Source of the DNA: Loxodes magnus
Taxonomy: Eukaryota > Ciliophora > Karyorelictea > Loxodida > Loxodidae
Direction of reading: 5' to 3'
NCBI GenBank assembly: GCA_946699065.1
Contig: CAMPDV010001457.1
Span: 44,347 to 108,346 of the forward strand
DNA: 64,000 nucleotides
This document shows positions 8,851-60,056 of the stretch, in pieces (position 1 is the stretch's first letter; each line of letters starts with the position of its first letter). The notes under the pieces are model-generated. The model saw only the letters and a list, made by a program, of their open reading frames with translations, was not told where the DNA came from and ran no database searches. Made by a program: the position numbers and the translations under genes.

Positions 8851-8856
8851 ATATAA

Positions 8857-13440: not shown

Positions 13441-13477
13441 TTTTTTACCTTTATGAATTTTAAATGCTAATATATAA

Positions 13478-26956: not shown

Positions 26957-27939
26957 ATATAAAATAAATAAAATGGTTGAAGGTTTCAAGAAAGGCTTCT
27001 ATATCACCTCTTCCTAAGCCAGAAAGGAAGGGAGGAAGCAGGAAACCACTTCTTGGATGTCGTCTTCTTCACAACATTAACCTTTTTCTTAATTTTAGCA
27101 ACCTTAACCACCTGGAATTTAACAAGAAGAACAGAAGAAGGCTCAGAAAAGCAAGCATACTGAAACACCGACTTCACTAGAGAAGCCTAGAAAGCAGGCA
27201 AAGTCTGCTTTACACCAGGAGGTGTCGGAATTTAATCCTTCTTGCCAGATGAACATGGAACAGCTCATCCAAGTTGTACTAAGCCTCCAGGAAGAGGTCA
27301 AGAGACTAAAGAAGGACAACGACAGGCTAATGGAGAATCTGAACAAGCAAGAGGAAATCGAATCAAGACTTATGTCCTAAGAAAGGGAATTAAGTGCATT
27401 TTGGAATATATCACAGAGTCAGAACTGCTAATCCTAAAATTAGAAATAGAAACAGACGGAGCTGGGTAACAAACTTGGAGAAATAGAAGAGAAGCTGCAA
27501 CAGTAAATGAAACTTAATGAGCAAAGAGGCGATCCAATGCTGATAGAGGTAATTGACATGAAGAAGAAGGCTAAGCCAATCAAAGTAGTTAAAAAGTGCT
27601 ATTATTGTAATTCAGAGAAACACCTATGAAGAAGATGTGAGTAATTCCTAAACTTTAAGAACCAGTATTGGAGAAAATAGAGGAAGTAGCAAGCGTAGCA
27701 AAAGAAAATGAGACAACAATAACATAGGAAAATTAGAGAGAGACTATTCATGAACTAGCTTGGAAATATTTATAGGAAGAAACCTTTGCTGAACTGAAGA
27801 CATAGTTAGAGACAACAAGAACAAATGGGTGGGAGAGAAGTAGAGACCTATAAGCCTTTTTTTAATCCCGGAGCAATCTGGGATCGGCATGAAGAGGTGA
27901 AAATCCTCGAAAATTGTCAAACTTAATTATTTTAATAAT
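26957..27939 (+). mobile_element. ORF1-only retroposon, copy b (apparently intact)
   Basis: A 983-bp insertion bounded by the 15-bp direct repeat AATAAAGTTGTAATT at 26942-26956 and 27940-27954. It holds one long ORF and no reverse transcriptase. Two short stem-loops follow the knuckle region: ATCCCGG/CTGGGAT near 27866-27885, and GAGG-TGAAAAT-CCTC near 27893-27907. A short TAA-rich tail comes next. The flanking duplication and tail indicate target-primed insertion using an enzyme supplied by another element. Confidence 0.8.
26973..27935 (+). CDS. Retroposon ORF1 protein with coiled coil and CCHC knuckle
   Basis: From ATG 26973 the frame stays open to the tail if TAA/TAG = Gln and TGA = Trp. 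The N-terminal third is Ser/Gln/Pro-rich and basic. A coiled coil follows at about residues 100-145 (SLQEEVKRLKKDNDRLMENL), then a second helix (LGEIEEKLQQQMKL). The knuckle CYYCNSEKHLWRRC starts near residue 210 with C-x2-C-x4-H-x4-C spacing, and its W is a TGA codon. A Gln/Arg-rich tail follows. This layout (coiled coil for trimer or dimer formation, then an RNA-binding knuckle) is that of LINE ORF1 proteins. Codon use is visibly GC-richer than in copies c and d. A TGA at about 27798 may be the real stop, or the frame may read on to 27935; the code makes this ambiguous. Confidence 0.65.
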
Positions 27940-27956
27940 AATAAAGTTGTAATTTT

Positions 27957-28797
27957 AATAATAATAATAATAGTAAACTAAAAGTAATTAAAGTTTAGCA
28001 TTCCCTGGATTTTCAACCAGGTTTTTGCTACCATTTTTTTAGCGTGGATGGATACCACGCCATTTTTTTATGTGGATGGAACCACAGAGGATCTTCTGTC
28101 TTTTATGTGAATAGTTTTCTCTTGTAAATCCCTGTTTAGGTTATTCAGAGTCTGCTGAGTATGCTTAACGTTCTTTATTGTTCTTTTATCTAAATTTATC
28201 TTCACTAATCGCAATTTTGTAATAAGTGTCACTTTGATTTGCAATAATAGCATTGTTTGCCTTGTTTTTTCTTGAATCTCTTCAGAAATACTTTTTTTTC
28301 AAGTTAATCGATTCTTTTGATTAAATCTATATTAATCTTTTAGTCATTCTATTTTTCTTAAACGTTTGCTTATGTAGAAACATTTTCGATAATCATATTT
28401 TGTTCTTGCTTAAAATTCGATTGAGATTATTCATATAGTTACTATTCCGTGACTAGATTATTCTAAATCAATTATCGTCTAATTATTAGAAGCTCGTTAT
28501 TTTAATCTTCGATAGTATTCATTAGTTCTCTTATTTTTTCCCCTTGGTTGTAAATTGTTTCCTAATAATTTTGTATTATTGTTTTCATTTGGTCAAGCTA
28601 TATTTATATTTCGGATTATTTTTATACCTTTACTGGATTCGATTCTATTGTTCCGATTATGATTTTTCCTTCAGAGGAGGAACTTGATTTATCTTCTTCT
28701 TGTTGTTGTCTCTGCATTTGTTTCGCAGCTTTCCTTTTTGCGTTCTTAATTTGGTTTTTGGAAAGGCGAATAGATTATTCCATTTTAGATACTTTTT
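27957..28797 (-). mobile_element. ORF1-only retroposon, copy c
   Basis: An 841-bp minus-strand insertion bounded by the 15-bp repeat TAAAGTTGTAATTTT (27942-27956 and 28798-28812). It is inserted beside the 3' target repeat of copy b, so the same target word occurs three times. ORF1 begins MEQSIRLSKNQIKNAK, with a coiled coil and the knuckle CYYCKSKWHLLQNC (W = TGA), then RLWITQTGIY with W = TGA where copy d has TGG. The 3' region carries GCGTGG/CCACGC and CCTGG-TTGAAAAT-CCAGG stem-loops and a (TAA)n-type tail. Confidence 0.8.
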
Positions 28798-30504: not shown

Positions 30505-31345
30505 CCTAAAAAAAATGGAATAATAGGTCCGTCTTTCAAAAAACTAAATAAGGAAAGCAAGAAAGCAAGCGACGAAAGAGGAACTAAAAAAATAAAAACA
30601 ATAATAAGAATCTAGCTCTTCACCTGAAGGAAAAATAATGATAGGTCCAGCTGAGTCAGTTAATCCACAAATTTAGAGTAACGACTTTCTTCAAGATTAA
30701 ATTGAAAAATTGAAAGCAATGATCACTAAATAAGATGAAATGATATTCAATTACGGAGATCGAATTCGAGAACTTATGGATTGCATCGAAGATTAAAACA
30801 AAGAATTAAAAATATTGAGAAGCTAGCTAATAAAAAGTAGTTTAGTTACAGAATAGTAATTATGAGAAATGTCATAATCAAATTTTAAATAATTTCAATG
30901 TATGATTATAGAAGAAACTCCAACCCAATTTTAGAATACATAATAAAATAAACCTAGTTAAGAATAGGCAAGTACGGATTTAACTAAAAGAATTGAACAA
31001 CTGGAAAATAAAATATTTAAAAAGAAGAACACTGAAAAATAAATAAAAAATTGTTGGTATTGCTACTCACGGAATCACTTACTAAGACACTGCAAAGAAT
31101 GAAAGAATTTACAGATAAGAGAAGAGCAGAAAACATGAAGAGCTTTAAATAAACTATGGATTACTGAAAATGGAGTTTACAGACAAAAACTTTTAATACG
31201 CAACAAAGAAAATTAGCAGTGGTAACCATCCACTTACAAAAAAGGTCGGGGAAGACTTACCACGTAAAAAAATTGGTCTGTTGGTGCCTGGTTGAAAGCC
31301 CAGGGATAGCAAACTTTTATTTAACACTAAGTTCATTTATTATTA
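30505..31345 (+). mobile_element. ORF1-only retroposon, copy d (apparently intact)
   Basis: An 841-bp insertion with the 13-bp duplication TTAAGTCAAAGTC at 30492-30504 and 31346-31358. It starts a few bases before the ATG and ends in a TTATTATTA tail. Its 3' region has GTGGTAA paired with TTACCAC (about 31218-31263) and the terminal stem CCTGG-TTGAAAGC-CCAGG. This is the same layout as copy c and the same length. Confidence 0.85.
30515..31270 (+). CDS. Retroposon ORF1 protein, CCHC type, intact frame
   Basis: ATG 30515 begins MEQQVRLSKNQIRKARKQ, and the frame stays open past the knuckle. A basic N terminus is followed by a Ser/Pro linker, coiled coils (DQIEKLKAMITKQDEMIF, then IEDQNKELKILRSQL), and a second helix just before the knuckle CWYCYSRNHLLRHC (near residue 185). 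A tail with RALNKLWITENGVYRQK follows. Three TGA codons are read as Trp (in QLWEMSQ, CKEWKN and QKTWRAL). No TGA follows these in the frame before the element's end, so where translation stops is unclear; I end the CDS near the TTACCAC stem. Role: RNA-binding chaperone of a non-LTR retroposon. No reverse transcriptase is encoded in the element. Confidence 0.7.
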
Positions 31346-31663: not shown

Positions 31664-32499
31664 GTTAATTAAAGTAGTAATTAATGAGCAAGAAGAAGCT
31701 AAGTATTTAAAGAAAATTTATTGAGTATGTTAGTAAATAGGAAGTACTTAACTCAAACTAATTTATACAAATTATGCTGAAATATATATTATTCAAAAAT
31801 TATTATAAAAAAATACTGAAAGATTAAAAAGATAGCTCTATAATTAGTATATTAAATTTATTATTTCTAAATTAAGCAGATATGCCTTATAAAATTTAAC
31901 ATTTTTGATAGCAGTTGCTCTTGCTTTATTACTGACTAAGAAAAAAGCAGAATACTTCAAATGAAAAACTTTAATTTCTAGATTCACTATTCTTTAGATC
32001 TTTTATTTAGGTTAATCCTTCTTTTACATAAAAAGTAAAAAATTTACAAGCTGTAGAGCAGGAATCCTTTATTCTTATAATTTTATAAAGCAGAAAAACT
32101 TTTTCCATCTCTATTTAAAATTTCTAAACTATTACTAAACCTTTATCTATATTTCTATATCAGAAATTTAATTTAGTTTTAGTTTTGATTTTTCCCATTT
32201 TATTAATTCATAATTTTATAAAAAGATTAGTAGAGAAATACTTTATCAAATAAATATAGAACTTATTTAAATTCTAAAGAATAAGGATAAAAGATGAAGT
32301 TAAGAGATTATTCTAAAATAGTATAGAGTAATTATATAATTTTAATATAAAATATATATTAAAAGTTAACTATAACTTAATACAAACTATTAATACGCTT
32401 CCTATTTCTATCTTTTATCTCCTATATTTTAACTATTAGGCTCGCTTACAAATTATAATGACTTTAGATTATTCATTACCAAAAAACCTATTTTTATCA
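31664..32499. other. A+T-rich, no recognised gene
   Basis: No supported feature between the truncated tRNA and the NACHT paralogue 4 fragment. Confidence 0.45.
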
Positions 32500-33860
32500 T
32501 GAGTCACTATATTTTTTTCTTCTAAGGATAATTCTAAATCAATGATATTTTAGACTTCACAGTAATCTCTTATCGAAGTGTGGGTAAATTAAATTCTATT
32601 TTTGTAGCTTTACTCTTCTATCTATATCAAACATCCTATATCATTTTATTTTTATTGAATTACTCTCTTCACTTTTAATTTCATTCTTCAAAATTTCTAG
32701 CAGGCACTGATATATTCTATAGTATATGGATGCTTTTACCTTATTTGAAAGCGCTGTTTATTGCCTTATATTATCCCAATTCATCATGCGCGTCAGATAA
32801 TAATAATAATAATAATAGTAAACAAAAGTAATAAAAGTTTAACCTCCTCTAGATTTTCAACCAGGTTTTTGCTACCAATTTTTTAGCGTGGGTAGAAAGA
32901 CTGAGAATCTTCTGTTTTTTATGCAAATAATTTTTTCTTGTATACCTTTGTTTGAATAATTCAGAGTCTGCTGAACATGCTTAACGTTCTTCTTTGTTCT
33001 TTTATCTAAATTTACCTTTATTGATCGCAATTTTGTAATAAGTGCCACTTTGATTTGCAATAATAGCATTATTTAATTTGTCTTTTCTTTAATCTATTCA
33101 GAAATAATTTTTTCAAATTAGCTAATTCTTTTGAGTAAGTTTATATTAATCTTTTCGTCATTCTATTTATGGACTTTTGCTTATGTAAAAACTTTTTCAA
33201 TTATCATATTTTGTTCTTGCTTAAAATTCGATTGAGATTATTCATATAGTTACTATTTCGTGACTAAATTATTCTAAATCAATTGTCGTCTAATTATAAG
33301 TAGCTCATTATTTTGATCTTTGCTAGTATTCATTAGTTCTCTTAGTTTTTCCCCTTGATTGCAAATTGTTTCCTAATAATTATGTATTATTGTTTTCATT
33401 TATTCAAGTTATATTTGTAATTATGATTAATTTTACACCTTTATTAGATTTGTCTCTATTGTTCTGACTATGACTTTTCCTTCAGATGAGGAACTTTATT
33501 TATCTTCTTTCTTTTGTTGTCTCGCGTTTGTTTCGCTGCTTTCCTTTTGCGTTTTTAATTAGGTTTTTGGAAAGGCGAATAGAATATACAATTTTTTTTA
33601 TACACATCAAATAAAAACAATATTTTATAACCTTAAAATTTTATTTCTCTTAAATTGTACTATTTTAAAAAGCAAATTCTTTTAATTTATTTTCAAATGC
33701 TTTAATGGTTGGAAGATATACTAATATATATAAATATTCATTATTATACTCTAGATTCTTTAAAGTTAGAACTTCTAAAAACAAATTTTTCCAGAACCAG
33801 AATCTCAAAAATTAATAATCCTGTTTACCTATCATTATCTAAAAATTTGAAAACTTCAAC
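32500..33860 (-). pseudogene. NACHT paralogue 4, split by an ORF1 retroposon
   Basis: Minus-strand homology to the intact NACHT gene occurs on both sides of the retroposon at 32797-33598. The upstream part (33860-33600) corresponds to the segment from VQKFLDN through the P-loop region, where the loop is degraded, to KILFLFD. The downstream part (32796-32500) resumes at DAHDELGQYKAI, that is inside Walker B. It then appears to skip to the sequence that matches 38516-38650 of the intact gene (TCTTTTATCTATATCAAACA is shared word for word). So it is broken both by insertion and by internal deletion. Confidence 0.65.
32797..33598 (-). mobile_element. ORF1-only retroposon, copy e, in NACHT paralogue 4
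   Basis: About 800 bp and close to copy c throughout. It shares the words CTTTTATCTAAATTTA and CAACCAGGTTTTTGCTACCA (the terminal stem-loop region) and the (TAATAA)n tail next to 32797. The 5' end reads IRLSKNPN-like sequence near 33580. The knuckle region and RLW codon (TGA) are present. The target repeats are imperfect: ATGCGCGTCAG at 32786-32796 and the related TATACACATCA at 33599-33609, which differ mostly by C/T and G/A changes. Confidence 0.7.
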
Positions 33861-34410
33861 TGAAGATCGTCCTTAACCATAAGCTTGGATTTAGAGAACA
33901 TTATAAACTTAAGAAATATTCTTATTTCTTTATATATAATCTTTTTTATTTTTTATCATATTTTAATAGATACTTTTTTTACATTTTAAAGCAAGTCAGT
34001 TCTATTCTATTGTTTAAGTAAATTAAAAAGCAAGCTCTAGATAAGTTAAAATTCAAGTTTATATAAAGTCTTAATTTCCAAATGACATAATATTTTAGAA
34101 TTATAATAATCCATCTTCGATATATTACCATGCTAGATCATAAGCAAGAATATCTAAGATATTTAACATTAAAATTGTTTTTTTATGGATTTTTTCATTT
34201 ATCTATCCATGACTCCTTATAAAGAAATTCTTTAAGATGGAGATAACATTAGTATCCATAATTCCAACTAAAAAATACAAAGAAAACAACTTTCTGACAA
34301 TCTAAATAAAATTACAGAACCATCAAAATAGTGATTTAATATATTATTTGGACAATATTAAATTTAAAAATTAGATTTTTTATCTTAAAGTGTTAAACAA
34401 ACTTTTAAAA
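33861..34410. other. A+T-rich, no recognised gene
   Basis: It may contain further decayed NACHT paralogue 4 sequence, but I could not align it by eye with confidence. Confidence 0.35.
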
Positions 34411-35032
34411 TTTTATTCCGTCCCAAAAAATTTTGTTCCGTCCCAAAAAATTTTGTTCTGTTCCAAAAAAAATTGTTCCGTCCCAAAAAAAATTGTTCCG
34501 TTCCAAAAAATTTTGTTCCGTCCCAAAAAACTCATGTAGTGTAAAACGCTGAGCAAAAAAACAAAAATAAATTTTTCACGTTTTTTGCATTTTTTTCTAC
34601 TTTTTTATCTCTTCAATTTTACAATTTTTAACTTTTTCCAGAAAAAAACATACTTTACTATATTACAGCTTTTGATTTTTTTTCTTCGCTTTTTCACTCC
34701 GCTTTTCATTTCAAAGCATTATTTTACTCAATCATACTTTTTTGACCTATATTGAAAAAAAAAACTTTTTAAAACTCATTTCTTTTTTAACCCAAAAAAT
34801 TTTGTTCCGTCACAAAAATATTTATTCCAAAAAAATTCGTTCGAAAAAATTTATTCCGTCCCAAAAAAAATTATTCCGTCACAAAAAAATTTAGTCCGTC
34901 ACTAAAAAATTTATTCCGTCACTAAAATATTTGTTCCAAAAAAATTCGTTCAAAAAATTTATTCCGTCACAAATTATTTTAGTCCGTCACAAAAAATCTC
35001 CTATAGTGCTAAACGCTGAGCAAAAAAACAAA
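34411..35032. repeat. Two minisatellite blocks with a shared anchor
   Basis: Block 1 (about 34415-34534) has six units near 20 bp of the form TTTTGTTCCGTCCCAAAAAA. Block 2 (about 34788-35004) has more diverged units with the core TTCCGTCAC or GTCCGTCAC. Each block is followed by the same single-copy anchor, TAGTG[TC]AAAACGCTGAGC or TAGTGCTAAACGCTGAGC, and a run AAAAAAACAAA. The whole arrangement is therefore a duplicated unit. It lies about 0.6 kb beyond the 3' end of the intact NACHT gene. Confidence 0.8.
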
Positions 35033-35095
35033 TTCTTTATTTTCACTTCTTTTACACACTATTACATACCAATTTCAAAAAAAACTGCACACTCA

Positions 35096-35150
35096 TAACC
35101 TAACATACCCTACATAACCTACATACCCTACATAACCTACATACCCACAC
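35096..35150. repeat. Short CCTACATA tandem repeat
   Basis: About three copies of an 18-bp unit, CCTACATACCCTACATAA. It is telomere-like only in containing CCCTA; the period and sequence do not fit a ciliate telomere. Confidence 0.7.
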
Positions 35151-35636
35151 TTAAATATCTTCTTCCAAATTCCTCTTAAACCTCCACTTTCTCTCAACCT
35201 AAACACGTAACTCTTCAATAAAAAAAAATACTCACCACACTCACACACTTTTTTTTCAATCCATTTTAAATTCTAAAATTAATATATAGTAATTCACTAA
35301 TGATTACTTAATACTTTCTTACTCACACTTTCTCTAATTTTAATATTTCTCTTTTTGAATTCAAATAATACACTAATTCATTCCTTTTAATAACCTCAAA
35401 CACTAAATGTTTTCACTTTTAATTTGTTATTTTTCACACACCCTTTCTAAAATACTTTTAACTACTCTCTTTATTTCCAACCTCTTATAGACACTCACTT
35501 AACTTTTTAAAACACTTATTATCTAACACTATACATACCACTTGTCTTATTAAATACTTTTAATCAAAAAAACATATAACTTATAATTTACTTATCTTAA
35601 TTCAATTACTATTATTTGTAAAAATTTATTCAAGTC

Positions 35637-38600
35637 TCATCACAATGAAATATCTTCGTCTTCTATTAGACTCTCATTTCTCTCCTCCGATGAAAACTAT
35701 TCGTCTTCACTTTGATTCTCACTCATCTCCTTCAATGAAAGATACCTGTCTTGCACTAGTCTCACATTCATCTACTCCATTGCCACTCCCTCAAAGTCAC
35801 ATTGGTGCACCACCAATCCACTCCTTCCCATCATCCTCTTTAACACATAATCACGATAATTCTTTGCTAACTCCCATATCTTTATTGTGCTATCACTACT
35901 TCCAGATATTAAATACTTAGATTCACTTGATAATACCAGAGAAGAAACCCAATTAGTATGACCCTCTAATGTTCTTATAAGCTCATATGTTTACATGTCC
36001 CATATCCTTATTGTTTTATCATAACTTCCAGATATTAAATACTTAGAGTCACTTGATAATATCAGAGAAGTAACATCAGAAGTATGACCCTTTAATGTTC
36101 TTATAACCTTGTATGTTTACATGTCCCATATCCTTATTGTTTTATCATCACTTCCTGATATTAAATACTTAGAGTCACTTGATAATATCAGAGATTCAAC
36201 AAAATCAGTATGACCCTCTAATGTTCTTATAAGCTCATATGTTTACATGTCCCATATCCTTATTGTTTCACTTCCAGATATTAAATACTTAGAGTCACTT
36301 GATAATACCAGAGAATCAACACGATCAGTATGACCCTTTAATGTTCTTATAAGCTCATATGTTTAAATGTCCCATATCCTTATTGTTGTATCATAACTTC
36401 CAGATATTAAATACTTAGAGTCACTTGATAATACCAGAGAATAAACATAATAAGTATGACCCTCTAATGTTCTTATAAGCTCATATGTCTACATGTCCCA
36501 TATCCTTATTGTTTTATCATCACTCCCCGATATTAAATACTTAGAGTCACTTGATAATACCAGAGAATTAACAGATTCAGTATGACCCTCTAATGTTCTT
36601 ATAAGCTCATATGTTTACATGTCCCATATCTTTATTGTTGCATCATAACTTCCAGATATTAAATACTTAGAGTCACTTGATAATACCAGAGAATAAACAA
36701 CAGAAGTATGTCTTTATAGAGGCTTAGTAAGATTATCTACCTACATATCCCATATCCTTATTGTTTTATCAACACTTCCCGATATTAAATACTTAGAGTT
36801 ACTTGATAATACCAGAGATTCAACAGAAGAAGTATGACCCTCTAATGTTCTTATAAGCTCATATGTTTACATGTCCCATATCCTTATTGTTTCACTTCCA
36901 GATATTAAATACTTAGAGTCACTTGATAATACCAGAGTTTTAACAGTATCAGTATGACCCTTTAATGTTCTTATAAGCTCATATGTTTACATGTCCCATA
37001 TCCTTATTGTTTAGTAACTTCCAGATATTAAATACTTAGAGTCACTTGATAATACCAAAGAATTAACACCAGAAGTATGACCCTTTAATGTTCTTATAAG
37101 CTCATATGTCTACATGTCCCATATCCTTATTGTTTTATCACGACTTCCAGATATTAAATACTTAGAGTCACTTGATAATACCAGAGAATTAACACCAGAA
37201 GTATGTCCATCTAATGTTCTTATAAGCTCATATGTTTACATGTCCCATATCCTTATTGTTCTATCACCACTTCCAGATATTAAATACTTAGAGTCACTTG
37301 ATAATACCAGAGAAGTAACACCATCAGTATGACCCTTTAATGTTCTTATAAGCTCATATGTTTACATGTCCCATATCCTTATTGTTTCACTTCCAGATAT
37401 TAAATACTTAGAGTCACTTGATAATACCAGAGTTTTAACAGTATCAGTATGACCCTTTAATGTTCTTATAAGCTCATATGTTTACATGTCCCATATCCTT
37501 ATTGTTTTATCATAACTTCCAGATATTAAATACTTAGAGTCACTTGATAATACCAAAGAATTAACACCAGAAGTATGACCCTTTAATGTTCTTATAAGCT
37601 CATATGTCTACATGTCCCATATCCTTATTGTTTTATCACGACTTCCAGATATTAAATACTTAGAGTCACTTGATAATACCAGAGAATTAACACCAGAAGT
37701 ATGTCCATCTAATGTTCTTATAAGCTCATATGTTTACATGTCCCATATCCTTATTGTTCTATCACCACTTCCAGATATTAAATACTTAGAGTCACTTGAT
37801 AATACCAGAGAAGTAACACCATCAGTATGACCCTTTAATGTTCTTATAAGCTCATATGTTTACATGTCCCATATCACTATTGTTTCATCATCACTCCCAG
37901 ATATTAAATACTTAGAGTCACTTGATAATACCAGAGAATTAACATCAGAAGTATGACCCTTTAATGTTCTTATAAGCTCATATGTTTACATGTCCCATAT
38001 CCTTATTGTTCTATCATCACTTCCAGATATTAAATACTTAGAGTCACTTGATAATACCAGAGAATTAACACAATCAGTATGTCCAGCTATGGTTGGCATT
38101 TAACCAAAATTAACCTAACTCATATTTGCACCATTGAATTTACAATTCCTCAACCAAGCTCCTCTAAAATTCACCCTTGATAAATTAGCACCACTCATAT
38201 CACAACCATCAAACACCGAATCACTCAAATCCGCCCCAGGTACTTAGATATTCTGAAGATCATTCATCTGCGAAAACTGATAATCCATCCAATTCAATAT
38301 TGTTATACAGTTAGCACCCACCGTTTATAAAGATTTATTGGATCTTGTCCACTTCACTATCTCCAATAAATTTTATTAAAACTAAACCGAACTATCAATC
38401 TCCCTTATAAACTACTAGATCTCCTTATTGTCCACTATCGAATATCTGTTTATTTCGTGAGCTTCTATTGAATTTATGCTATTTTGCAAATTTAAGACTA
38501 AATTTACTATATTCCTTGACACATAGTAATCCCTTATCGAAGCATGAATAAACTCAAACCTCTTTTAACCATTTTCCTCTTTTATCTATATCAAACATCC

Positions 38601-41291
38601 TATGTGGTTGGATTTATCAGTTATTTTCTTTATTCATTCTATATTTGTTTTTTCAAAGCCTTCCCAGGTTACCTAACCAGTTAATAATTACCATGATGCT
38701 TATATTTATATACCTTCAAAGATTTTTGGCTTTATCTCAATTTCTTAAGCTTCCTTTTGTTATTCTTATAATTTTCCTTTCGTTCTTTCATTTCATTGAT
38801 CTATAAAAATCTGATATATTTATGCCTTAGTTATTTACTTAAAATTTCCACATTTTAAATGCTTTATTATTACTTCCTCCCTTAAACAGATATTTATTAA
38901 AAAGGGGTTTTCTAATATTTCGATTAAACCAGGAATACCTTTAATAAAACCCATTACTTCTTCAATGGATTTCCATTTCGTAGGTTACTCTCTTTATGTT
39001 TAACTTTAAGTTTAGCTTTACTCTTAGCTTTGATTCTTCAATACTAGTTAAGCATAATTTTCTATTTACTAACTATTAAAAGGCTTAATGAATAATTCCT
39101 ATAACTCTTGCGTTTAAGCTTCTTCATTTTTGTAAGGTGAAAAATATTTTTAATAATCTTAAGCTTTTAAAGCATAGTTTATTCTACAAGTAATTATATA
39201 TTTTGCCTAAGGAAATTTCTACTTAAGTTTACTTGCTCCTATTATTGCTATATACTTTCCTATTTCATCATATGCGTCAAATAGGAATAAAATTTTTCTA
39301 AATATTAGTCTTTCATTAGTCTCAACGTTGTAATCTTTTAAAACGTTTTGCAAGAAATTATTATCGAATGTTTAAATTATTGGAAGATAAACATATACTA
39401 GCAAATATTCATGTTTTCTTGTTAAATAGTCCAAAGCTAACTTTTTCATAAATAAAGTCTTGCCTCCTCCTGAATTTCCCAGAAGCAACAAGCCTGTTTT
39501 CTGTTAATTATCCAAGAACTTTTACACTTCTTCCTCTAGGTCTTTCTACTCTTCAGAACTTGCACTAGGTGCACAGAGTAAACTTACATAGTATTCTAGT
39601 TTTTCTTAAATTTCCCCTTTTAAGGTATCTATCATTTATTCATAAATTTTGCTGTTAAGACCCTTAAGTGCAAGCCAATTTTGATCGATTGTTTAGTTAA
39701 AATTAGATAAATTTTCAGGTTTAGTTAATAATTCTATAATTACTTATTTTTCCTTAGTGTTTTATTTTATGTTATTTGTTTTTTTTATCACGATACTTTC
39801 CTTGGCTGCAATAGCTTCACTTATGTTATCGTTACTCAACTCTATTAGAGTTTTTAAAGCATAGTACCGTACTCTTCAGTCTTTATCATCACATAGCTAT
39901 TATAAGAAATCACATGAACTTTATTTTAGTTATGTACTGGTCTTAAAATTTTTAACTATGCTTTTAAGCAAAAAGCAAGCTCTAAATCTAATTTCGTTAG
40001 CTTCACCTTAAACAATTGCTTGGAAATCTGTGAAATCTTAAGGAAGATTTGTTTGATTTAAATTTAAGGATAGTGCTTCCAGATAACGAATTTTTAAATT
40101 TTTATTTTTGTGAATTATTTCGTAGAATTTATCTTTTCCTTTCATTAAAACGTTTTTAATAATAGTCATCGCTTCAGTATCTATAGCACCTACTCCAAAC
40201 GATAAGGCGACTATTCATTAAGCTACTTTTATAATTTTAAAAAAGATATCGAAGTAGTCCTTCTCTTCTATACTTGGTAAGTTCTCTAGAATCATTAGAC
40301 TACGTTCAAGAGCAAATTCTAGTTCTGGTCCTCCTAAAGCTTCCCTTTTTACCAAAATTAAACTTGCTTTAATTTTATTAATAAGGTTACCTTAAGTCTA
40401 ACTATCAATAACTGTCTTTTATTACTCATTCTTTTACAGTAGAATGTCCAATAACTCAGGTAAATATCTCACTATTTGCTCTTTTAAAAGCTAAGACCAA
40501 CCTTTGGCTATTTCATTAGATATGATATCAATAAATTAAATGCATAGTTCAAAAGGTTTATTAATATTTGAGAAGTTATTATCTTTGAATACTTAGAAAC
40601 CTTCCAGTATTTTTTCCATACTTTTCTCATTTAAGCCCTCTTACATAAGATTTAGTCCTTCTTAATAAATCTTTTACTCTTTAGTTGATATTATTTGATC
40701 AATTACTTCAGTTTATTAAGTTTTTTATTTTTCGTCAATTACTTCTTAACCTTTTACTTCTAGAGTGGGTTTAATTTTATTTTAATTGGATCTACAACAG
40801 CCTCCTCCTTTTAAACCCATGCTTAAATAGATCCCTTACTTTGCTTGTTCATAGTTTATTCTAGTTGCTTTCTTTGCAGGCTGAGATTATTTAAATAGAT
40901 ATAGTTTGTCGAATTTATTTGCAAGACCTTTAATATCATTTTAAAGTTTATTTTCCTTGAGAGAATAACTTTCAACCTCTTATTAATACAACAAGGAGAG
41001 ATTTTCCTAGAGTGTTTCATAACTCACCTTTAAGATGATTGGTTTATTTTCCTCATTGTTACACTCTTAGAGAACAGAGAAGCAATTTGAAATAGCTGAA
41101 TGTTGATTCTCAATTTTTCCGAGTGAAATTATTGCATTTTGCTCTTTTTGAGATAAAGAGTTTGTCTTGAAGGTTATAATCGCTCCAGGCACTCTAAGAT
41201 AGAAGCCTGCTTGAGACTAAAAGCTTGAACAGCTTCATAACTTAAGTTAACCGAAAATTTCGTATTTTGGTTTGAAACTCTCAGTTGACAT
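35637..41291 (-). CDS. HEAT-NACHT-pentapeptide-WD40 receptor (STAND family)
   Basis: ATG at 41291-41289 and two consecutive TGA codons at 35642-35637 are in the same frame. With TAA/TAG = Gln and TGA = Trp this gives 1,883 residues; I checked the frame at many points but did not translate every codon. An N-terminal region of unknown fold comes first (shared with paralogues 1 and 3). HEAT-like repeats follow (DDKDWRVRYYALKTLIEL, W472). The NACHT ATPase has P-loop GNSGGGKT (605-612), Walker B LFLFDAYDE (668-676), CRINYAL and IPGLIEILENPFLI. Next are pentapeptide repeats (about 1010-1065: GADLSDSVFDGC, MSGANLSRVNF), 18 WD40 repeats (about 1066-1800), and an acidic tail (QSEDEQFSSEERNESL). TGA encodes W19, W359, W472 and W833. 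STAND NTPases of this layout switch on ligand binding by the repeats and oligomerise through NACHT; role in defence or self-recognition is inferred. An alternative is a short intron near codon 18, but the open frame makes it unnecessary. Confidence 0.9.
35880..38090 (-). repeat. Array of 18 near-identical WD40 repeats
   Basis: Eighteen units of 120-126 bp, each reading GHTxxVxSLVLSSDSKYL then ISGSxDxTIRIWDMQTYEL and RTLKG/RTLEG/RTLDG. Most bases are identical, including third positions. Differences concentrate at the two residues after GHT, the residue after V and the residue before D in ISGSxD. Three units (at about 36274, 36893 and 37388) lack two codons in ISGS-ETIR. One unit near 36650-36760 has a different linker (QVDNLTKPLQRH). 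The last unit (near 35911) diverges after TIKIWE into the C-terminal tail. Confidence 0.92.
36890..37883 (-). repeat. Four-repeat block duplicated in tandem (about 498 bp)
   Basis: The block of four WD40 repeats beginning with the ETIR unit occurs twice with an offset of 495-498 bp. The 219 bp at 37114-37332 and 37612-37830 appear identical. One repeat differs by a short indel (TTTAGTAACTTCC at 37010, TTTTATCATAACTTCC at 37503). This is a very recent unequal exchange within the gene. Confidence 0.9.
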
Positions 41292-44200
41292 TTTATTTTA
41301 TTTCGTCAACCTTAATGAAGAAAAATGGCGAATAAGAATTTAAAAGAGTTAAAAGGAAAAAAGTTAAATTAGAGATTTGAAATTTCTATCTTAATGCTTG
41401 ATTAATCTTTCAATCGGCTATTCGTTTCGTCTTTCTATCGTTTCTATACCTCGACATTCTATCTCTAGTTCTTGTATTAATAGACAGAGATTAAGCATGC
41501 TTAGTCTTTTTTCTTTACCATTTTTAAATAACCTACAACCAAGCCAGTCTAAAATGACTGTAGCTCATCATAGCTTAATTTTAAGTAGGCATAATATAGA
41601 ATATTGATCCTAGCTTTTAATACCTCTGATGTCATTAAGAATATTAAGCTTTAAACTATATGCCTATTTTATTAGCATCTAGACACCTTTCTTCGACTAA
41701 GGCTATTTTAATTTTACTCTGAGGATCCTTTCTCAATTAGCACTCTTCGCTCACTTAATTTGACTAAATCTTTTCACTAAACCTTAATATTAGTACTTCT
41801 TTCTTTTAAGTCTTTCTTAAATTGCAGCTAAGGTGTAATATAGGCTACTCAAAATTAGGCTGATAAGAGAGGGGATTTGAAATAAGAGAATTAAGAAGAT
41901 AATATAGGTTTTTTAGGTGCAAGAGACTATAATATAGGACTTTATTTAAGAACAGCTAGAATCAATATTAGACATAATTAGTAACTTAAAAATGGATACC
42001 TTTAACTAAAGGATATATAACCTGGTTAACAAAGTTTAGTCATCTAATTAAGTCTCTATTTAGCTTTTATCAAATATATTATAAATTTAAGTATCCTAGA
42101 ATTACAGGAGTTGAGTAACTATATAATATCAGAGTTTTTTAAAGTAGGAATTTCTAGCTGATTATGGAGAAGAAAGATAAGAAATCTGAAAGAGATTTCA
42201 AGTAAATTAAAAGAAGTGAGTGAGATTCGATAGGCTTAAGAGAAATAAAGATATGAAGTTCACTAGAATCTAAGTCATTTTATCAAATAATAAATAACTA
42301 GAGAAGAAATTAATAAAGGATCTTAATCAAGAACATAAGTTATACCTAGCTACCAAAATATTCTTGTCGTTTCTCTTTATTATCAGTTCTTTTATAATCA
42401 GAAACAAGTAGAGAAGATTTTCTATAATAATTAAAAGTGGAATAGAAATGCTAGTCAGCAATATTATAGGATAGAGATATGTATTTTATTGAGTGAATTT
42501 GTTAACTTAAAGCGTATAAATTAAGACATTCACAAGAAGCTTAAGAAATAAATCTCATCTCATTTTAATTAAGCGTGAACTGATTGATCATACTTTAAGA
42601 TTCTCTAAGGCTTTAGAGTATCAGAAGACACAATTCCTAAATTATTAAATAAGATCCATTCAACTAAATTAAAGCTTAGAGATAAATTCATACAAGAGAA
42701 GAGTTAGTTGAATAAGATTTCATCTAAGGGGAAACAGGATAAAAAGGGCAGAGCTAGTAAGACATTAGCAAAATATTTAAAGAGTAGCTAAACTAAGCAA
42801 GAAATATATTATAAGCCAACTTTAGAAATATCGGTTTCTTTTATTTGTTCTCAATACTTAAAGAACTAAAACTTCGAAATTAGAGAATCCAACAAAAATT
42901 TAAAAGCTTGAGTTCTACGAAATTTCAATCTAGTAAAAACAAATATTCTTGGAAAAATAAATTTAAAATAAAAGCCATGATACAAGCATATCGACTTGCA
43001 GTTTTACTTAGAATGGAATATAAAGAAAAGATTCTAAGAAATCAGAATTTAGTATAAGTATATTCAAAGCTCAAAAAAGAAGATTTTAACAACTTTTAAC
43101 CATTTTGAATGAAGAAACTATCTGATTAGAGAGAAAAACATATAAATCAAATAAAAGCTTTCAAGGAAAGCATTACTACTGTAGTAGTGTTATATTAAAC
43201 TTATATTTGAATTGTATTTAAAGCTTATAAATTTTAATAATCTGATATAATTATATAAAGCAATGAATATTCAGACTCTATTTTAACAATATATTTATAG
43301 TTAGTAGAATACGAGATAATCTAATTAGATCTATTTAGATGATAGTATGAGTAATTAATTAGATTCTATAAATCTTAAAAATTAATTTCTAAAATAAACA
43401 TAATAGCCTTATTCACTATATCCTTACATTATCACATGGTCCACTCATATCTAGTCTATATGCTTTGCTTTATTAAACTTCATCTTACACTCATATCACG
43501 CTATTATTCAGTGCTAAGTGAAAAAATCCAAATTTAATCTCATTATTTAAGTGAATAATCTAAATTTTTCCTTTCTGTAAGAGAAAGCAGATACATTCCT
43601 ACCTTTATTAATGTTTCTACAAGCTATTAATAGAATTTTTTCATCTCCATTTAATAAACTCCTGAAATTCGCTTTCCCCTTAGTTAGATTTACTTACTTC
43701 TTTGATTTATCCTTAGAACCTTAAAACTTTGTCTCGAAACTAGTGGTTATTATATCTTATTTAATTTGAGGGTAGAAATAAAAATTCTGTTACTTGTAAA
43801 GAAACTTTAACTTGATGATTGAAACAAAAGCTTAAATCAAAATAAGACAAAATATTGGAAAGAATCCCATCCAAGGAAGATTGAAAATTATAAATTTGTT
43901 TAGTTTCAAAACCCCTGATAAGAAAACAGAGCTAGCTGTCTTCTAGCACTCACTACAGATATATAAAATAAAAGGAAATAATCAAATGGTTGAAGCATTT
44001 TAGCTATGTTAAGTGATTCAGCTTAAATAGATTAATGATAATTTAAAAGCTAAGAGGTTTTATCAGGTCTTAAATCTAAAGAGTAAGGAAGAAAACTGAT
44101 ATTGATGGATCTTGTTGTTGCTATAAAGAAATAAACTGGGATTAATTTTTGTTTCGATGTAAGAAATTTGAAGGCTAGCTGAATTAATTAAAAAAGGGTA

Positions 44201-44689
44201 GATTTAGCTTCATTTTGCAAAATCGGAGGTATACTTAAGTATAGGTGAGCGTCAGCAGGTTTTAGAGCACAAATTATTTTTTGATTAACTTATAAATAAC
44301 TAAAAGCGTAGAAAATTTAGATTAATCATTAATTAAGAATTTTTTTGATTTATGGCTTATTATAAATCAAGATGAATCGCTCTATCCATTTTTTATTTAT
44401 TTTAAATAGTTAAAATGATCTTTGACATAAAAGAAAGAGTCAAATAGCTTTATATATAAGATAGATTTAGTAAGCTAAGTCTGCAAAAGACTGAAGAGTA
44501 AACAAAGATTTAGTAGCTAAATTATGAGATGGTAAAATAAATAAGCCTAGTATATTCTAGCAACTTTGGAGCATAAAAAGGATAATCGAGGAAAAATAAT
44601 CTAGCATAATAATGGAGAAATAGGCTTTATCAGGTGAAAAAATATAAATGAGATAGCTTAGTTCGCTTATTAAGAGAAATGAAAAATTT
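41292..44689. other. No recognised gene
   Basis: The sequence upstream of the NACHT gene start is A+T-rich. A short hydrophobic frame at 41398-41607 is unconvincing. 42150-42900 and 43900-44250 have protein-like stretches with recoded stops (for example LIDHTLRFSKALEYQKTQF near 42570) that I cannot assign. Confidence 0.4.
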
Positions 44690-45584
44690 TACTCATTCTT
44701 ATAAATCAAAAAATCCAATAACTCAGGAGGATTTTGTACAAGCTATTCCTTTAAAAGCTAAGACCAGCCTTAATCATATTAATAAGATACTATTTCTTCA
44801 AATTGATTTATGAGCATAAAAGAACTTTTAGTTTGGTTAACTTATTTTCTGAATGGATTAAATTCTTTTTAAAGCTAATTCCATCTTTTAATTGCTTAAA
44901 CCTTCTTTTAAGATTTATAATCCTTCTTGATAAATCTTTTGCTCCTCAGTTAATAAAACTGGTTATTGAGGCTAAGTAGCATTTGCATTGCTTCCTTAAT
45001 TTGGGGTTAATTAAGCTCACTAAGAAGTTTAATCTTTTTTTATTAATATTTATTAATATTTTTGTACTTCGCACATCAACAGCTTCTTCTCTTCATTTTC
45101 ATACTTTTTTAAAATTCAAAGTTTTAGTTTCGCTTAATCAGCATAGCTCCTTAATAAGAAGTCATCTATAAGCTTTGTTTCAGATAATTGTTTCGCTTAT
45201 CTAAAACTCTTTAGCATCTAGTATTTCTGCGTTTCTCAGATAAGGATATTTTTGAATCAAGCGTTAACTTTCATTATCTTAATAGTAATGTAAAGCGGTT
45301 TCATCTGTTTATCCATGAATACACTCCTCCATTAGTAAAGGTAAATAATTTTACTCTTTAAGCCCATTAAAACTCGATTTGAGTATAAATCTACTTTATC
45401 CCTCAATCTTTTTGAGTATCTTTTAATCCTTAAAATTCGCGTCCATTTAAAATTGCTAGGCTAATCAGATTATAACATCATGAGATTTCAGAAATCCATA
45501 TAATTAGCTTTAAGACTGAAAACCATGACAGTTTCCAAGAACTTAACTGAAAACAAAGCAATATGAATTGCAATATTGAGCCAT
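44690..45584 (-). pseudogene. NACHT paralogue 3, N-terminal part only
   Basis: It starts MAQYCNSYCFVFSQVLG at ATG 45584 and runs through NFKDQKILKKIEG, LLMEECIHGQTDETALHYY and KYPYLRNAEILDAKEF. It then reads EEQKIYQEGL and GWSQLLKEQLVQNPPELLDFL, all with counterparts in paralogue 1 and most in the intact gene. Homology ends near 44690, before the HEAT and NACHT domains. At least one frame change occurs near 45170. Paralogues 1 and 3 are closer to each other at the N terminus than to the intact gene. Confidence 0.75.
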
Positions 45585-46997
45585 TTTATAATATTTTAAA
45601 AGTAGAAATTAGAATATCTAAGAATATAAAAGATTAAATAAAATGTCTATTATAACTAAATACTCTTTCTATTCATATTAGACACTCGTTATCTAAACCT
45701 ATAATAGACTACTAGATATACTACTATTTTATTTATTACTATCAACTAAGTTAACAGCAACTCATTTAAGATTAATTAGCTCTTTAAATACAACAAAAGT
45801 AATTTTAATTCACGCTGATGAACCATATCTAAATACTCCTAGTCAATATATATTTTTTTTCGTTTATTGTATAATTAGTTTGGTATAAGATACAATTAGA
45901 CTTTGAGATATTGCTTTGAATACCTTTATTTATACCTTCTGTTATTGTCCATGAAGACTAGAAATAGCTAAGAGAATTACTTATCGTTTTTGCATAAAAA
46001 AGAAAGAAAATAAGCTTGGCGATATGTAGCCTTACTTTTTATATTTGGTGTAAGAGTAGATATTTCAGCAAAACGAAAATTAAGTTATAAGCTATTAAAT
46101 TAATCAAAGAGATTATAAGATTCATGCAGAACTTAAATAAGATATAGAACAAATCTCACTAACTTCTTTATATAAAGAAGAAGGAAAAGAAGAACAAATA
46201 AATAAATAAGCTGTATTAATTAATTTAAATATAAACTAATTAAAAAATAAGAAACTAAGGATTATTAGTCCTTAGATAAGCTACTACTAGTAAATCTTTA
46301 ATTGCAAGTTTATAAGCAAATCTAGTAAAACAATAATAAATAAATTGATATAAGTAAATAAAGAATATTCAGATATCTCTTAAATTACTTCCAAGTAATT
46401 CTTATTTCAGATTTAAGTTAATTAATTAAAAGCTTTAGTTCCTTATTATTTTTTCATCTAAACTAGCATAAAAAGTTAATTATTTATAATACCTAGAAAA
46501 AATTATTGAGCAATAATAATCGAGACTAATATATACTTAAGGAATAAAAAATAAATTTAATGAAAAATTTAAAAATCTAAGAAATAAATCAAGTATGAGA
46601 CAGAGAAACAAAGACGTGAACATTTTTAAGCTATCTATCTTTCTTATAATTGTGCAAGATTTGGTGAAGTTATTCTCATTTCGGAATTACTAAAAAGATA
46701 AAAAGAAACAAAAAAGTCCTAATTAGACCTAAGATAACTTGGGTTTCTAAACTATTCATCAAAATTGAACATATAAGGATTTTATTAAACTCTAAGATTT
46801 AAAGAAAAATAGCTAGTTAAAGAAGGATACAAAGTATAATTATTAAAAACATCGATAATATGAGTAACTACGAAAATCTAACTTTTCATAATTAAATTCC
46901 AAGAATTCAGCAAAAATTTTTAAGACACATAAGGATTAGTTTCATCTTAAGGATTTTTTAGGAATTAAAGAAATAACAGAGTTTTAATATTTTTAAA
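45585..46997. other. A+T-rich, no recognised gene
   Basis: No supported feature was found upstream of paralogue 3 and before the ORF at 46998. Confidence 0.4.
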
Positions 46998-47417: not shown

Positions 47418-48669
47418 TAGAATATAAAAATAACTTAAATAAAAATTGAACAGGATCATAATATGGAAAAAAAGGAGTAAGAAAGAAATTGGTCTTTTAA
47501 TTGAAATCCATGTTGAATACATATCAAACTTCCATTATAAGTTTTACTGAAGCTCCTAGGAAATTTTTTCTTCTATTGTGGATATGACTTGGTGTACTTA
47601 AGTTCTTAAATGTTTTATATTAATTTTAAAGTTTATTCTTAATTAAATATCTTCTTATGCATTTCTTTTCTTGAATGTTTCAAGCTTTTATCATTTTTAA
47701 GCTTCTTTTATTGGATATCTAATATAAATTTTCCCTTAAATTTCGAAAACCTAGTAAAATGCGTGCTCCAGATAGTGGTTATTTTTAACGTTCTAAAAAT
47801 GTAAGTAATTATAGATATATTTCTGTAGTATTTTTAGTCAGATTAATTCAAATTCTCCCACATATTGCTATAGAACTGAGTAATCTTTCTTGCATTTATT
47901 TTCTTTTTGCTTGAAAAGGTATCTTAATTTGCTTATCTTAATAAATTGCTTTTTAAGTTTTTTCTTAATAATATTGGCTTTCATTGAATTTTCTTTCTAG
48001 TCCTTTTTAATTCAGCCAATATGTTTTTGATATAATTTCTAGATACCGAAATATTTATAAAATCTTTTAGTCTCAATTTTTTTGGGTTATATCTGTTATA
48101 GGAAGAAGGATAATTTTACATTTAGACTTTTTTATTTTAAAATAATTCCTTAAGCCAAACCTTACCTGTTTATCTCTTTCATATTATCATTAATTTTAAT
48201 TATATATTAATCTAAGATAACTAAGCTTAGGTTATAAAATAGATTAATTAAGCCCCTAAGCTTTTATAATAATTTGGTTAAGTTTAAATCTATTTTTATT
48301 CTATTATTATAAATGGCTTTTTAAAGCGTGGGCTGTCTTTTTTATTTACCTATAAACAAGAGCTTAAAAAATCTCTAAATTTAACTGTAAATATTAGTTT
48401 TGCCATTGAGAAATTCTTGAAATAGCTTTGTATTTTTTCCTTTAACCTATTATGTTTTCTCTATTTTTTATTACAGCCTTGCTTACTATTCCACATATTG
48501 CTTATATCTTAAGAATCTTAACCTTTTTATCTACTTTATTGTTTTGCTTTAATTAGTATCTTTAAGTTGATTAGGAGTTAGAAAGTGGTAAAGGTTGAGG
48601 AGAGATATTGATTTTTTCTCGAATTGCTCTAATAACTTACTGTAGTTTTAATCTCTATGGTATAACCCT

Positions 48670-50640
48670 TGTAATTTTAATCCTCTTGGTTCGTAGGTTT
48701 TAAATTTACTTTAAAAGTAATAATTTAATTAATTTTCCAAGGATAGCAAAACTTATTTTTCTCACCTCTAGCTCTTTTACCTCACCAATTTTTGGTATAT
48801 TTGCTCAATTTTTTGTTTAGCTTTCGTGATTGGTAAAACTACCTTGAAATCTTAAATTTCTCTGCTCCTAAAATAATTCTGTCAAATAATTCGAAATCAT
48901 CACCTGATGAAGGATAAAGCAGCAACTCAATTTTTAAGCCCTTTTGTAAAGAATCTGTTAACAGTTGCCTTTTTAATAATTTGTATAAACTTAAGTCATT
49001 TTGAAGAAAAAAATTCTTTATCTCAGACTTTTAATTAATAAGCTTCTTCTACTTTGTATGTAAATAATACTTAGAATTACTATCTAAGATTAAGGCTTAA
49101 ATTTATCTATTTATATTTATTTCTTAAGAGCGTTTTTGTAATCATCAAATAGATTTACCTTTATTTCACTAGGTACTTCTTCATAATTAAGAGCTGCTTT
49201 TTGTTTTAATCTCAAATTAGATTATTTCTGTTTCTCAGCTATTATAATGATAAAGCTTTTTCATATACAGAGCTTTTAGTTTCTAATGTAATTTCATTAT
49301 AAGAAGTTTTATGAGATCTGAAGAATTTCATAGTTCAAATGGAACTTTGTCAACCTAAAGGGAATTATGAAGAGCGCCGCACTTCTCTGAAATTAATCCT
49401 GTAATTCTGCTTTACGAGCTATTAGCATTTTAAAAGCTACTAGTAGGCAAATTTTTAGACATTTTGAGCTTCTCAAACGAGTTTACTTATTAGTTCTTAT
49501 TTCGCTTTACTCTCCTCAGAGATAAAGAAACTATTCATCCTGTTAACCTCAACTGTTATAATTAATTTACTTAAATTCAATCTAAGGTTGTTATACTATC
49601 ATGCTATTTTATAATTATCTCTTTGTAGATAATCCTTAAGTTAGTGCTTTAATGCTCTATTTTATTCTACTACTCATAATTTTCTAGGTGCTCTTAACTG
49701 GCTTACTAACTCTAGAGTTAGTAACTACTCTAAATTTGGAAATTACTTATGATTGAAGAGTTTTATTTCAAGCCTATTTTTTCAAAACTAGTCAAGCTTT
49801 GAAAATGATTATTAGTTTCCTTTTAAAAATTTATTTCATTACACAAAGATTCAAGTACTATCAACTAAGCCTACTCTCCAGTCCATTTAGGCTTTCCAAC
49901 TAGCTTTGGAACACCCAATTTCTGATAACTCCAAGCGAGCATCATTTCAAGAAATATGCTTGATTTAATTATGAAAAATATAGTAATATGGGTTACTTGG
50001 AGATGATCAGAGAAATCTTAGATGTGATTATGAATTAAGTTAAGATTCAGTAAAGATGTAAACTATAAGTATCTGAAATTCTTCTCCGACATGCTACTAT
50101 GAGATAGTATTAATGTCGTTATCTACTATAGGTATGATAAAGTATCATCCAAATCAAGTATCATCCAATAGCTATCCGAAACTGTATTTACTAGAATCGT
50201 GGTTTTACCTATTTGATTATCTAATTAAAGAATTTTACATTTACAGATAGTTCCGTCAGGTTTATAATATTTTCCTAGAACTCCAGATGGATCAATTTTT
50301 ATTCTACGACACAACTCTAAGGCTTAAAGTCTTAAACTGTTGAAGCTAAATCAGTTAATTTCATTTATAGACAAAATTCTGAACTTGTTAGACTTGGCAG
50401 CAATTGGGATATGTTCTAATTACACTCTTGAGGGATAGTAACTCACTTAAAGTGGGTTAAATTTACTGAAATTATAAAAAATCTATCTAGTCAATGCTAA
50501 GAAGTTTTTAATCAAGATATAACTCTTACAACTTTAGGCATTATTTTGCGCCTCCTAAGATATCAGTACTCTTTACCTAATATCTAGCTTAATAAGTAGT
50601 TAGTAATTGCACTAATTTGAGGGAAAAAAGACAATTTTGT
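48670..50640 (-). pseudogene. LRR-type protein, copy B
   Basis: Inverted counterpart of 1-1290. Its minus strand reads IKIDPSGVLGKYYKPDGT, then NTVSDSYWMILDLDDTLSYL, then the LRR-like ITTLILSHSSMSEKNFRYLQ and LLNLNLIHNHIQDF. A conserved coiled-coil-like part follows. It extends further upstream than copy A, which is cut by the window edge; the upstream part (LTRQIFYNFSKFNPLQV) may hold more LRR units. I did not find a clean start or stop. Shared words with copy A continue to about 48670 (the segment GAACC/CCAAGAGGATTAAA). The role is unknown beyond probable protein binding. Confidence 0.45.
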
Positions 50641-60045: not shown

Positions 60046-60056
60046 GAACTCTTATT

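Follow-up and report, generated by a model that had tools for sequence, protein, structure and literature searches.

The 64-kb window analysed here, that is, the whole stretch of 64,000 nucleotides taken from contig CAMPDV010001457.1 of the ciliate Loxodes magnus (assembly GCA_946699065.1), holds one intact and three broken members of a gene family, as a BLAST and profile search covering the six frames showed. The intact member, copy A, is a single open frame on the minus strand running from 41291 to 35637, and encodes in order a HEAT-containing front half, a NACHT-like nucleoside triphosphatase (NTPase), pentapeptide repeats and an array of 18 WD40 repeats. Of the broken members, copy B is shortened and frame-changed, copy C is split by a mobile-element-like insertion and copy D is truncated. 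Beyond what the first-pass annotation of this DNA had described, the focused hypervariability of the WD40 repeats and these three broken relatives matter most.

Reading frame and recoded stop codons of copy A

Under NCBI genetic code 27, copy A (35637-41291, minus strand, as are all its features below) comprises 1,885 codons, or about 1,883 amino acids plus a tandem TGA, as assessed by translation, codon counts and paralogue alignment. Because code 27 has no dedicated stop, an open frame by itself is weak evidence, and the frame was therefore tested by other means. The codon counts are TAA 76, TAG 22, CAA 19, CAG 6, TGG 27 and TGA 7, with five of the TGA codons internal (residues 19, 359, 472, 833 and 886) and two terminal. 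Against the window background, 28.7 in-frame TGA codons were expected and five observed; over the first 1,067 codons, which precede the WD40 array, the same five compare with 16.3 expected (Poisson P 0.001), and the other frames over these codons contain 19 and 46 TGA on the same strand and 14, 15 and 9 on the antisense strand. Such scarcity is not unique to copy A, as five or fewer TGA occur in 3,279 of 121,600 window stretches of 1,067 codons, which begin near 38-41 kb (minus strand, copy A), 33-37 kb (plus strand, its antisense), 9-11 kb (minus strand) and 18 kb (plus strand). Homology to copy B is a stronger proof of the frame than TGA depletion. Taken together, the intact frame first read from the ATG at 41291 to the TGA TGA at 35642-35637 was confirmed to be real. 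On the plus strand, a 945-residue open frame (35300-38137) that lies antisense to the WD40 repeats was treated as a by-product.

Alignment with copy B also bears on the recoding. Among the 45 aligned TAA and TAG codons of copy A, 25 face glutamine in copy B (12 TAA, 7 TAG and 6 CAA), 12 face lysine or glutamate and 8 face other residues. The TGA at residue 472, within the HEAT-type motif, is TGG in copy B, and that at residue 359, inside a conserved stretch, is TGA in both copies, while one further TGA of copy B faces tyrosine in copy A. W833 and W886 find no counterpart in copy B, and the decayed copy C has valine opposite W886. The comparison suggests that TAA and TAG behave as glutamine and that TGA is read as tryptophan or as stop by context, as in the karyorelict-type code (table 27), which upholds the recoded stops proposed in the first-pass annotation. 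Its warning that standard gene finders would miss such a gene likewise stands, since 98 TAA or TAG and five internal TGA codons lie in frame, an example of what standard-code gene finders would overlook in karyorelict-type genomes.

At the 5′ end, the N-terminal region (residues 1-156; 40824-41291) was inspected by Pfam scan and by the guanine-plus-cytosine (GC) content of codon positions. Codon-position GC periodicity is absent from the first 100 codons, and upstream of the ATG at 41291 the frame stays open with another in-frame ATG, so this start codon is regarded as tentative. Residues 158-167 (40791-40820) read MGLKGGGCCR, resembling a lipidation-type start, but an internal start here is not supported because copy B has IKLKGGECGS at the same place. 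At the 3′ end, the tandem TGA (35637-35642) was taken as the stop from the translation, the flanking GC and the positions of the last TAA and TGA: the last in-frame TAA lies at residue 1767, the last TGA before the terminal pair at residue 886, and GC is 16-17% over 50-100 bases past the pair. For Loxodes magnus, one study reports UGA and UAA depletion over about 20 codons ahead of the stop and a GC of 18.6% in the 3′ untranslated region (PMC11441545), and the end of copy A fits these stop rules.

Domain organisation and hypervariable WD40 repeats

The front half of copy A begins with residues 157-560 (39612-40823), which align to copy B over 157-402 and again beyond residue 420, that residue included. 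The HEAT domain predicted here was recovered as one repeat at threshold, at residues 461-486 (39834-39911): it scored 25.1 bits in a Pfam scan of residues 1-560, above the cut-off of 23.5, but 23.1 bits when residues 1-1070 were scanned, and HEAT_2 remained below its cut-off; the domain is therefore weaker than the first-pass annotation made it. The NACHT/STAND NTPase match follows at residues 602-748 (39048-39488), seen by Pfam and by hhalign to a NACHT protein of a Nostoc plasmid, which itself passes the Pfam cut-off; hhalign gave a probability of 90.6 and an E-value of 1.3e-6 over 155 columns at 26% identity. The P-loop and Walker B noticed previously are both intact by translation, and the A/B alignment showed them to be conserved in copy B. 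Walker A is GNSGGGKT (residues 605-612; 39456-39479) in copy A and GDSGSGKS in copy B; Walker B is KILFLFDAYDE (residues 666-676; 39264-39296), in which FLFDAYDE with its acidic residues corresponds to LLLDAYDE; and ITCR in copy A and VTCR in copy B supply the sensor-like arginine of the STAND/NACHT motif set. Downstream, FEFIHASIRDYY was spotted by eye at residues 912-923 (38523-38558), with IQFTHTSIRDYC as its counterpart in copy C, and is a putative winged-helix-end motif of NACHT proteins. Pentapeptide repeats, also named in the first-pass annotation, are present (best stretch at residues 1019-1054; 38130-38237), with a Pfam score of 55.9 bits against a cut-off of 20.2. A PDB search with residues 501-1070 returned pentapeptide chains and weak G-protein chains, with no STAND protein by name, and NCBIfam matched residues 1-1070 to 16 families, nearly all of them pentapeptide-repeat families and all far under their cut-offs. 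Between copies A and B, the proportions of nonsynonymous and synonymous differences (pN and pS) are 0.30 and 0.74, with synonymous sites near saturation, and this comparison shows the HEAT-NACHT part of copy A to be under constraint.

The 18 WD40 repeats, as many as had been counted before, occupy residues 1068-1816 (35844-38090), were delimited by 18 Pfam stretches and a repeat alignment, and are encoded by near-identical DNA. Fourteen repeats are 42 residues long, three are 40 and one is 41, with the short ones lacking some residues of the b-c turn and the length of the last depending on the chosen register. Mean nucleotide identity among the 18 repeats is 0.889; it rises to 0.936 once the six most variable codons are set aside and, with repeats 11 and 18 left out as well, to 0.969. 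At the protein level, mean pairwise identity is 0.81 with a lowest pair of 0.55, or 0.74 among the 16 repeats without 11 and 18. Repeat comparison further identified a recent four-repeat duplication, in which repeats 3-6 (37341-37838) form the first member and repeats 7-10 (36846-37340) the second: repeats 7-8 equal 3-4 over 252 nucleotides, repeat 10 equals repeat 6, and repeats 5 and 9 differ at a single spot, the hypervariable b-c turn (five bases vs two), which is preceded by 74 and followed by 47 bases that they have in common. PDB 2ymu, a WD-40 repeat protein, was the best of the five array matches listed (E 1.8e-106, query residues 2-369). The C-terminal tail (residues 1817-1883; 35643-35843) closes the protein, and alignment showed that its first part is kept in copy B (CDFEGVxMEQxNVRxV).

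Variation within the array is focused. The repeat register was set to begin at L-x-G-H, the starting point of fungal repeats. Over the 42 repeat positions, entropy is highest at positions 7 (2.97), 9 (2.48), 25 (2.38) and 27 (2.37), followed by 2 (1.83) and 6 (1.74), with the next at 0.91. No other set of four positions among 111,930 ranks as high as 7, 9, 25 and 27, which keep their lead when the duplicated repeats 7-10 are removed, and the 18 repeats display 15 distinct combinations at these positions. Between them, position 8 is valine in 18/18 repeats, and position 26 is aspartate in 14 of the 15 repeats having it, the exception being repeat 9, where gap placement is arbitrary. In Podospora HNWD repeats, codons 7, 9, 25 and 27 are described in PMC1805685 as being under positive selection and codons 8 and 26 under purifying selection, with 7 and 9 in the d-a loop and 25 and 27 in the b-c turn, both on the top face. 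As positions 8 and 26 are conserved in copy A, the match to the Podospora positions holds by landmarks too. The first-pass annotation had drawn an analogy to the NACHT-WD40 proteins of fungal heterokaryon incompatibility, and because hypervariability falls on the same four positions in both, this analogy is stronger than was claimed.

We then counted codon changes along minimum paths. Positions 7, 9, 25 and 27 accumulated 26 nonsynonymous and 0 synonymous changes, compared with 43 and 16 in the rest of the repeat (Fisher P 0.0019; binomial against the neutral expectation, P 0.0038, for 18 repeats and four codons). Adding position 6 gave 30 and 0, and adding positions 2 and 6 gave 34 and 1. At these four codons the first two bases vary widely and the third is near-fixed, in 17/18 repeats at codon 7, 14/14 at codon 25 and 17/18 at codon 27, with codon 9 being looser (14 T, 4 A). 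In a control array of 13 segments from the Nostoc protein, variation was more even, with no focus on positions 7, 9, 25 and 27; a second array from Acaryochloris (12 segments, one spurious and one shifted by a residue) was too diverged to be a good control. As the changes fall mostly at codon positions 1 and 2, an origin by an adenine-specific diversity-generating retroelement was considered; it was rejected on the codon table because position 27 keeps A at the third base in 17/18 repeats.

Broken relatives and surroundings in the window

Copy B (5371-7766, plus strand), delimited by BLAST, profile search and codon alignment, shares 50% amino acid identity with copy A, and 612 of 664 aligned codon pairs were kept in two blocks while 52 were dropped. 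Its frame changes near 6318-6348, and a short intron at this place is not favoured, as the alignment continues without much extra length. Nothing in copy B matches residues 800-1768 of copy A; after its NACHT piece come a single WD40 repeat (28.3 bits, Pfam cut-off 27) and the tail. A HEAT match in copy B scored 18.9 bits. In het-d and het-e, repeat loss inactivates the gene, according to PMC1805685, and copy B with its one repeat looks similar, although its missing part is larger. Copy C (32478-34340, minus strand) adjoins copy A directly downstream on the same strand, and BLAST and profile search recovered decayed pieces of its HEAT, NACHT and winged-helix regions but no WD40 piece in the window. 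Its Walker B coding stretch is interrupted by a mobile-element-like insertion at 32801-33595 (minus strand), whose motif, run and breakpoints were all judged by eye, which carries gag-like sequence with a CCHC zinc knuckle and a TTA/ATT run at its end; a second copy of the insertion lies at 27956-28786 (minus strand). By eye, the insertion is flanked by a 12-base target-site-like duplication, 8/12 alike. Gag-like CCHC zinc-knuckle sequences are dispersed in the region, at 27956-28786 and 32801-33595 on the minus strand and 27099-27920 and 30539-31174 on the plus strand, and two of them end in a TTA/ATT run. Copy D (44680-45245, minus strand; BLAST and profile search) is a truncated 5′ piece, and it sits in a 1.5-kb duplication common to copy B (44681-46191 and 4419-5936, 79% identity).

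No Pfam family reached its cut-off when the 3.3 kb upstream of copy A (41300-44600) were scanned in six frames, nor in ten open-reading-frame-like segments of the window (60634-62020 being translated only in the frame in which it begins), or in three frames each of 12500-18400 (minus strand) and 59000-62900 (plus strand). Past the 3′ end of copy A, 34407-34996 contains two blocks of tandem arrays whose unit (AAAATTTTGTTCCGTCCCAA type) measures about 20 bases, the blocks being alike including their flank, and a telomere-like 18-base tandem repeat (CATAACCTACATACCCTA) occurs at 35094-35146, about 500 bases past the stop. A reverse-transcriptase-like stretch with a TDD motif was noticed by eye at 13496-15283 (minus strand), which matched no Pfam family at cut-off and may at most be a decayed element. 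Elsewhere in the window, an inverted pair of about 448 bases (8842-9285 and 10478-10925) is 95% identical, a diverged inverted duplication (62-1353 and 48608-50149) is about 76% identical in two pieces, and two transfer RNA (tRNA) genes were found, tRNA-Ala (AGC) at 11006-11077 (minus strand) and tRNA-Asp (GTC) at 58123-58194 (plus strand).

Interpretation and comparison with known systems

We consider that copy A probably encodes a fast-evolving intracellular STAND receptor of the NACHT-WD40 kind, built like the fungal HNWD/HET-E proteins, with a probability of roughly 55%; a receptor role is plausible but not proved. In the proposed mechanism, modelled on what is known of fungal and other STAND proteins, the 18 WD40 repeats would fold into two or more beta-propellers, and the top-face residues 7, 9, 25 and 27 would bind a protein ligand, possibly a foreign or non-self one. 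Binding would release an autoinhibited NACHT NTPase, which as a nucleoside triphosphate switch would undergo nucleotide exchange and oligomerise, and the N-terminal half with its HEAT repeat would relay the signal to an output. The array would evolve by repeat duplication, loss and homogenisation under selection for amino acid replacement at its four contact codons, while the family as a whole may turn over by birth and death.

Several observations weigh against this interpretation. The first-pass annotation had staked its reading on profile searches finding NACHT and WD40; WD40 was found, but NACHT, its motifs being intact, stayed just under the Pfam cut-off of 26.7, with 25.9 bits for residues 558-1030 of copy A (E 1e-5), 24.3 bits for residues 1-1070 and 26.3 bits in copy B. 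For the NTPase, no PDB chain matched at a meaningful E-value, and residues 1-156 yielded no Pfam family at cut-off and no known effector domain. AlphaFold2 gave unusable models, with a mean predicted local distance difference test (pLDDT) score of 35.1 for the NACHT region from a two-row alignment and of 50.2 for the WD40 array as a single sequence. The binomial P weakens to 0.011 without repeats 11 and 18 and to 0.020 without repeats 1, 11, 12 and 18; the test comprises 26 events in repeats that duplicate and recombine within one allele, and its P values are uncorrected for the several position sets tried, with a neutral expectation that assumes equal base changes although the genome is AT-rich. 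Moreover, diverse hot-spot sites are reported as general in highly repetitive WD40 proteins (PMC5587647), so a hypervariable pattern need not mean immunity.

This last point also favours a different account, in which copy A is a STAND signalling scaffold, such as a switch in development, stress or trafficking, that recognises nothing foreign or non-self, and whose WD40 face binds several endogenous partners with repeat variation reflecting partner specialisation. The top faces of WD40 domains generally serve as platforms for protein interaction (PMC1805685), and no immune gene context is visible, as neither the 3.3 kb upstream nor the ten segments matched a Pfam family. We regard this account as doubtful, since near-identical repeat DNA with replacement-only change at the contact codons, together with broken relatives of which one carries a mobile-element-like insertion, is more like fast-turnover receptor families. 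Neutral expansion of the repeats, by recent tandem duplication and drift of unconstrained loop residues in the absence of diversifying selection, seems unlikely. Propeller loops tolerate change, the near-identity of repeats 3-6 and 7-10 means that part of the array is young, and the binomial P, uncorrected, is 0.0038 for 18 repeats and 0.02 without four divergent ones; but drift hardly explains why 26 changes at four codons include no synonymous one while 16 occur elsewhere in the repeat, why the third base is near-fixed at codons 7, 25 and 27 (less so at 9) beneath widely varying first two bases, or why the Nostoc array varies more evenly.

The integrity of the sequence itself was weighed in the same way. 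Near-identical 126-bp repeats are hard to assemble, and Illumina assemblies fail on the Podospora array, as stated in PMC12222747, so the repeat number and block duplication might partly be artefacts. This appears improbable in view of the differing b-c turns of repeats 5 and 9 in the two blocks and the 15 four-position combinations in 18 repeats. It is very improbable that copy A is a pseudogene or a mis-read frame whose internal TGA codons are real stops: its three relatives are indeed broken, the TGA at residue 19 lies in a region where no relative was detected and valine faces W886 in copy C, but residue 472 is TGG in the HEAT motif of copy B, residue 359, where the sequence around it is conserved, is TGA in both copies, TGA is depleted in frame, and pN/pS against copy B is low.

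Documented cases of variable NLR-type recognition come mainly from animals, plants, fungi and bacteria. On a wider and more tentative view, which we put at somewhat short of even, a ciliate may keep a birth-and-death family of NACHT-WD40 receptors that diversifies through the same process at the level of repeats, and at the same four contact positions, as the fungal allorecognition receptors, a fast-evolving protist recognition repertoire of deep shared or convergent mechanism that could act against symbionts or parasites, or else in conjugation. If the HNWD-type signature is true in this ciliate, a diversifying intracellular recognition repertoire would become testable in a free-living single cell, as would the WD40 top face as a repeatedly used specificity surface.

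Searches for relatives placed copy A among known systems to varying degrees. An animal-type NLR has C-terminal leucine-rich repeats and an N-terminal death-fold or PYD domain, whereas the C-terminal repeats of copy A are WD40 and no death-fold family was among the matches of residues 1-1070 or 1-560. No PADLOC family of prokaryotic anti-phage STAND systems matched residues 1-1070 at E-values up to 1. Back-translated patterns gave 179 stretches in genome contigs for the A/B NACHT alignment, 32 in genome contigs for residues 881-1068 and 296 in viral contigs for the A/B alignment, none of which was confirmed as a relative. In plasmids, tblastn with the NACHT stretch alone found no match, while a query of NACHT, pentapeptide and WD40 matched 294 records, in none of which a single place spanned 80% of that query. 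Literature searches, which reached mostly the starts of abstracts with subscription papers and preprints largely outside, found no paper on ciliate NACHT-WD40 proteins among those listed, and the terms 'NACHT' and 'WD40' are absent from the main text of PMC11441545. PDB 2ymu resembles the WD40 part alone. Copy A also belongs with the highly repetitive WD40 proteins described by Hu et al. (2017), in which six or more out of eight contiguous repeats share an internal identity of 0.7 or above, its value by their definition being 0.881, and it resembles them in having diverse hot-spot sites inside conserved repeats; this is a class defined by structure rather than by function, with 305 members, 50.16% bacterial and 35.74% fungal (PMC5587647).

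Architecture was examined for two of the 294 matching plasmid records. The bacterial protein WP_159402688.1 from a plasmid of Nostoc sp. ATCC 53789, the NACHT protein and control array used above, passes the Pfam cut-offs for all three domains, with NACHT at 36.1 bits, pentapeptide at 27.3 bits and WD40 in 11 stretches. It resembles copy A in this order, in its NTPase and in a short similar stretch before the pentapeptide segment, but its repeats are less alike and their variation is not centred on positions 7, 9, 25 and 27. The Acaryochloris plasmid protein, annotated as NACHT domain-containing, showed WD40 families and a NACHT-associated inactive nuclease among the best 25 of 54 rows. A combination of HEAT and pentapeptide repeats had been called unusual, which the results support only in part; the NACHT-pentapeptide-WD40 order has a bacterial precedent in the Nostoc protein, while neither of the two plasmid proteins showed a front half containing HEAT, and a scan of the first 596 residues of WP_159402688.1 found no HEAT family.

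The HNWD proteins of Podospora anserina (HET-D, HET-E and HET-R) likewise carry, after NACHT, an array of WD40 repeats that are highly conserved among themselves (PMC1805685, PMC2873952 and PMC12222747). Copy A differs from them in having a HEAT-containing N-terminal half in place of the HET domain, a pentapeptide segment before the array, and 18 conserved repeats where the Podospora proteins usually have 11 plus three cryptic ones. The HNWD proteins are fungal, with an incompatibility reaction and a partner, whereas copy A is a ciliate sequence. As no HET domain was found in residues 1-1070 or 1-560 (Pfam, E up to 10), copy A is not filed as an HNWD member. It nevertheless shows what characterises the HNWD arrays: internal WD40 conservation above 80% (means of 0.81 for amino acids and 0.89 for nucleotides) and diversification at codons 7, 9, 25 and 27, here within a single allele. 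The two also have in common the conserved positions 8 and 26 amid the hypervariable ones, the duplication of repeats and the presence of broken family members.

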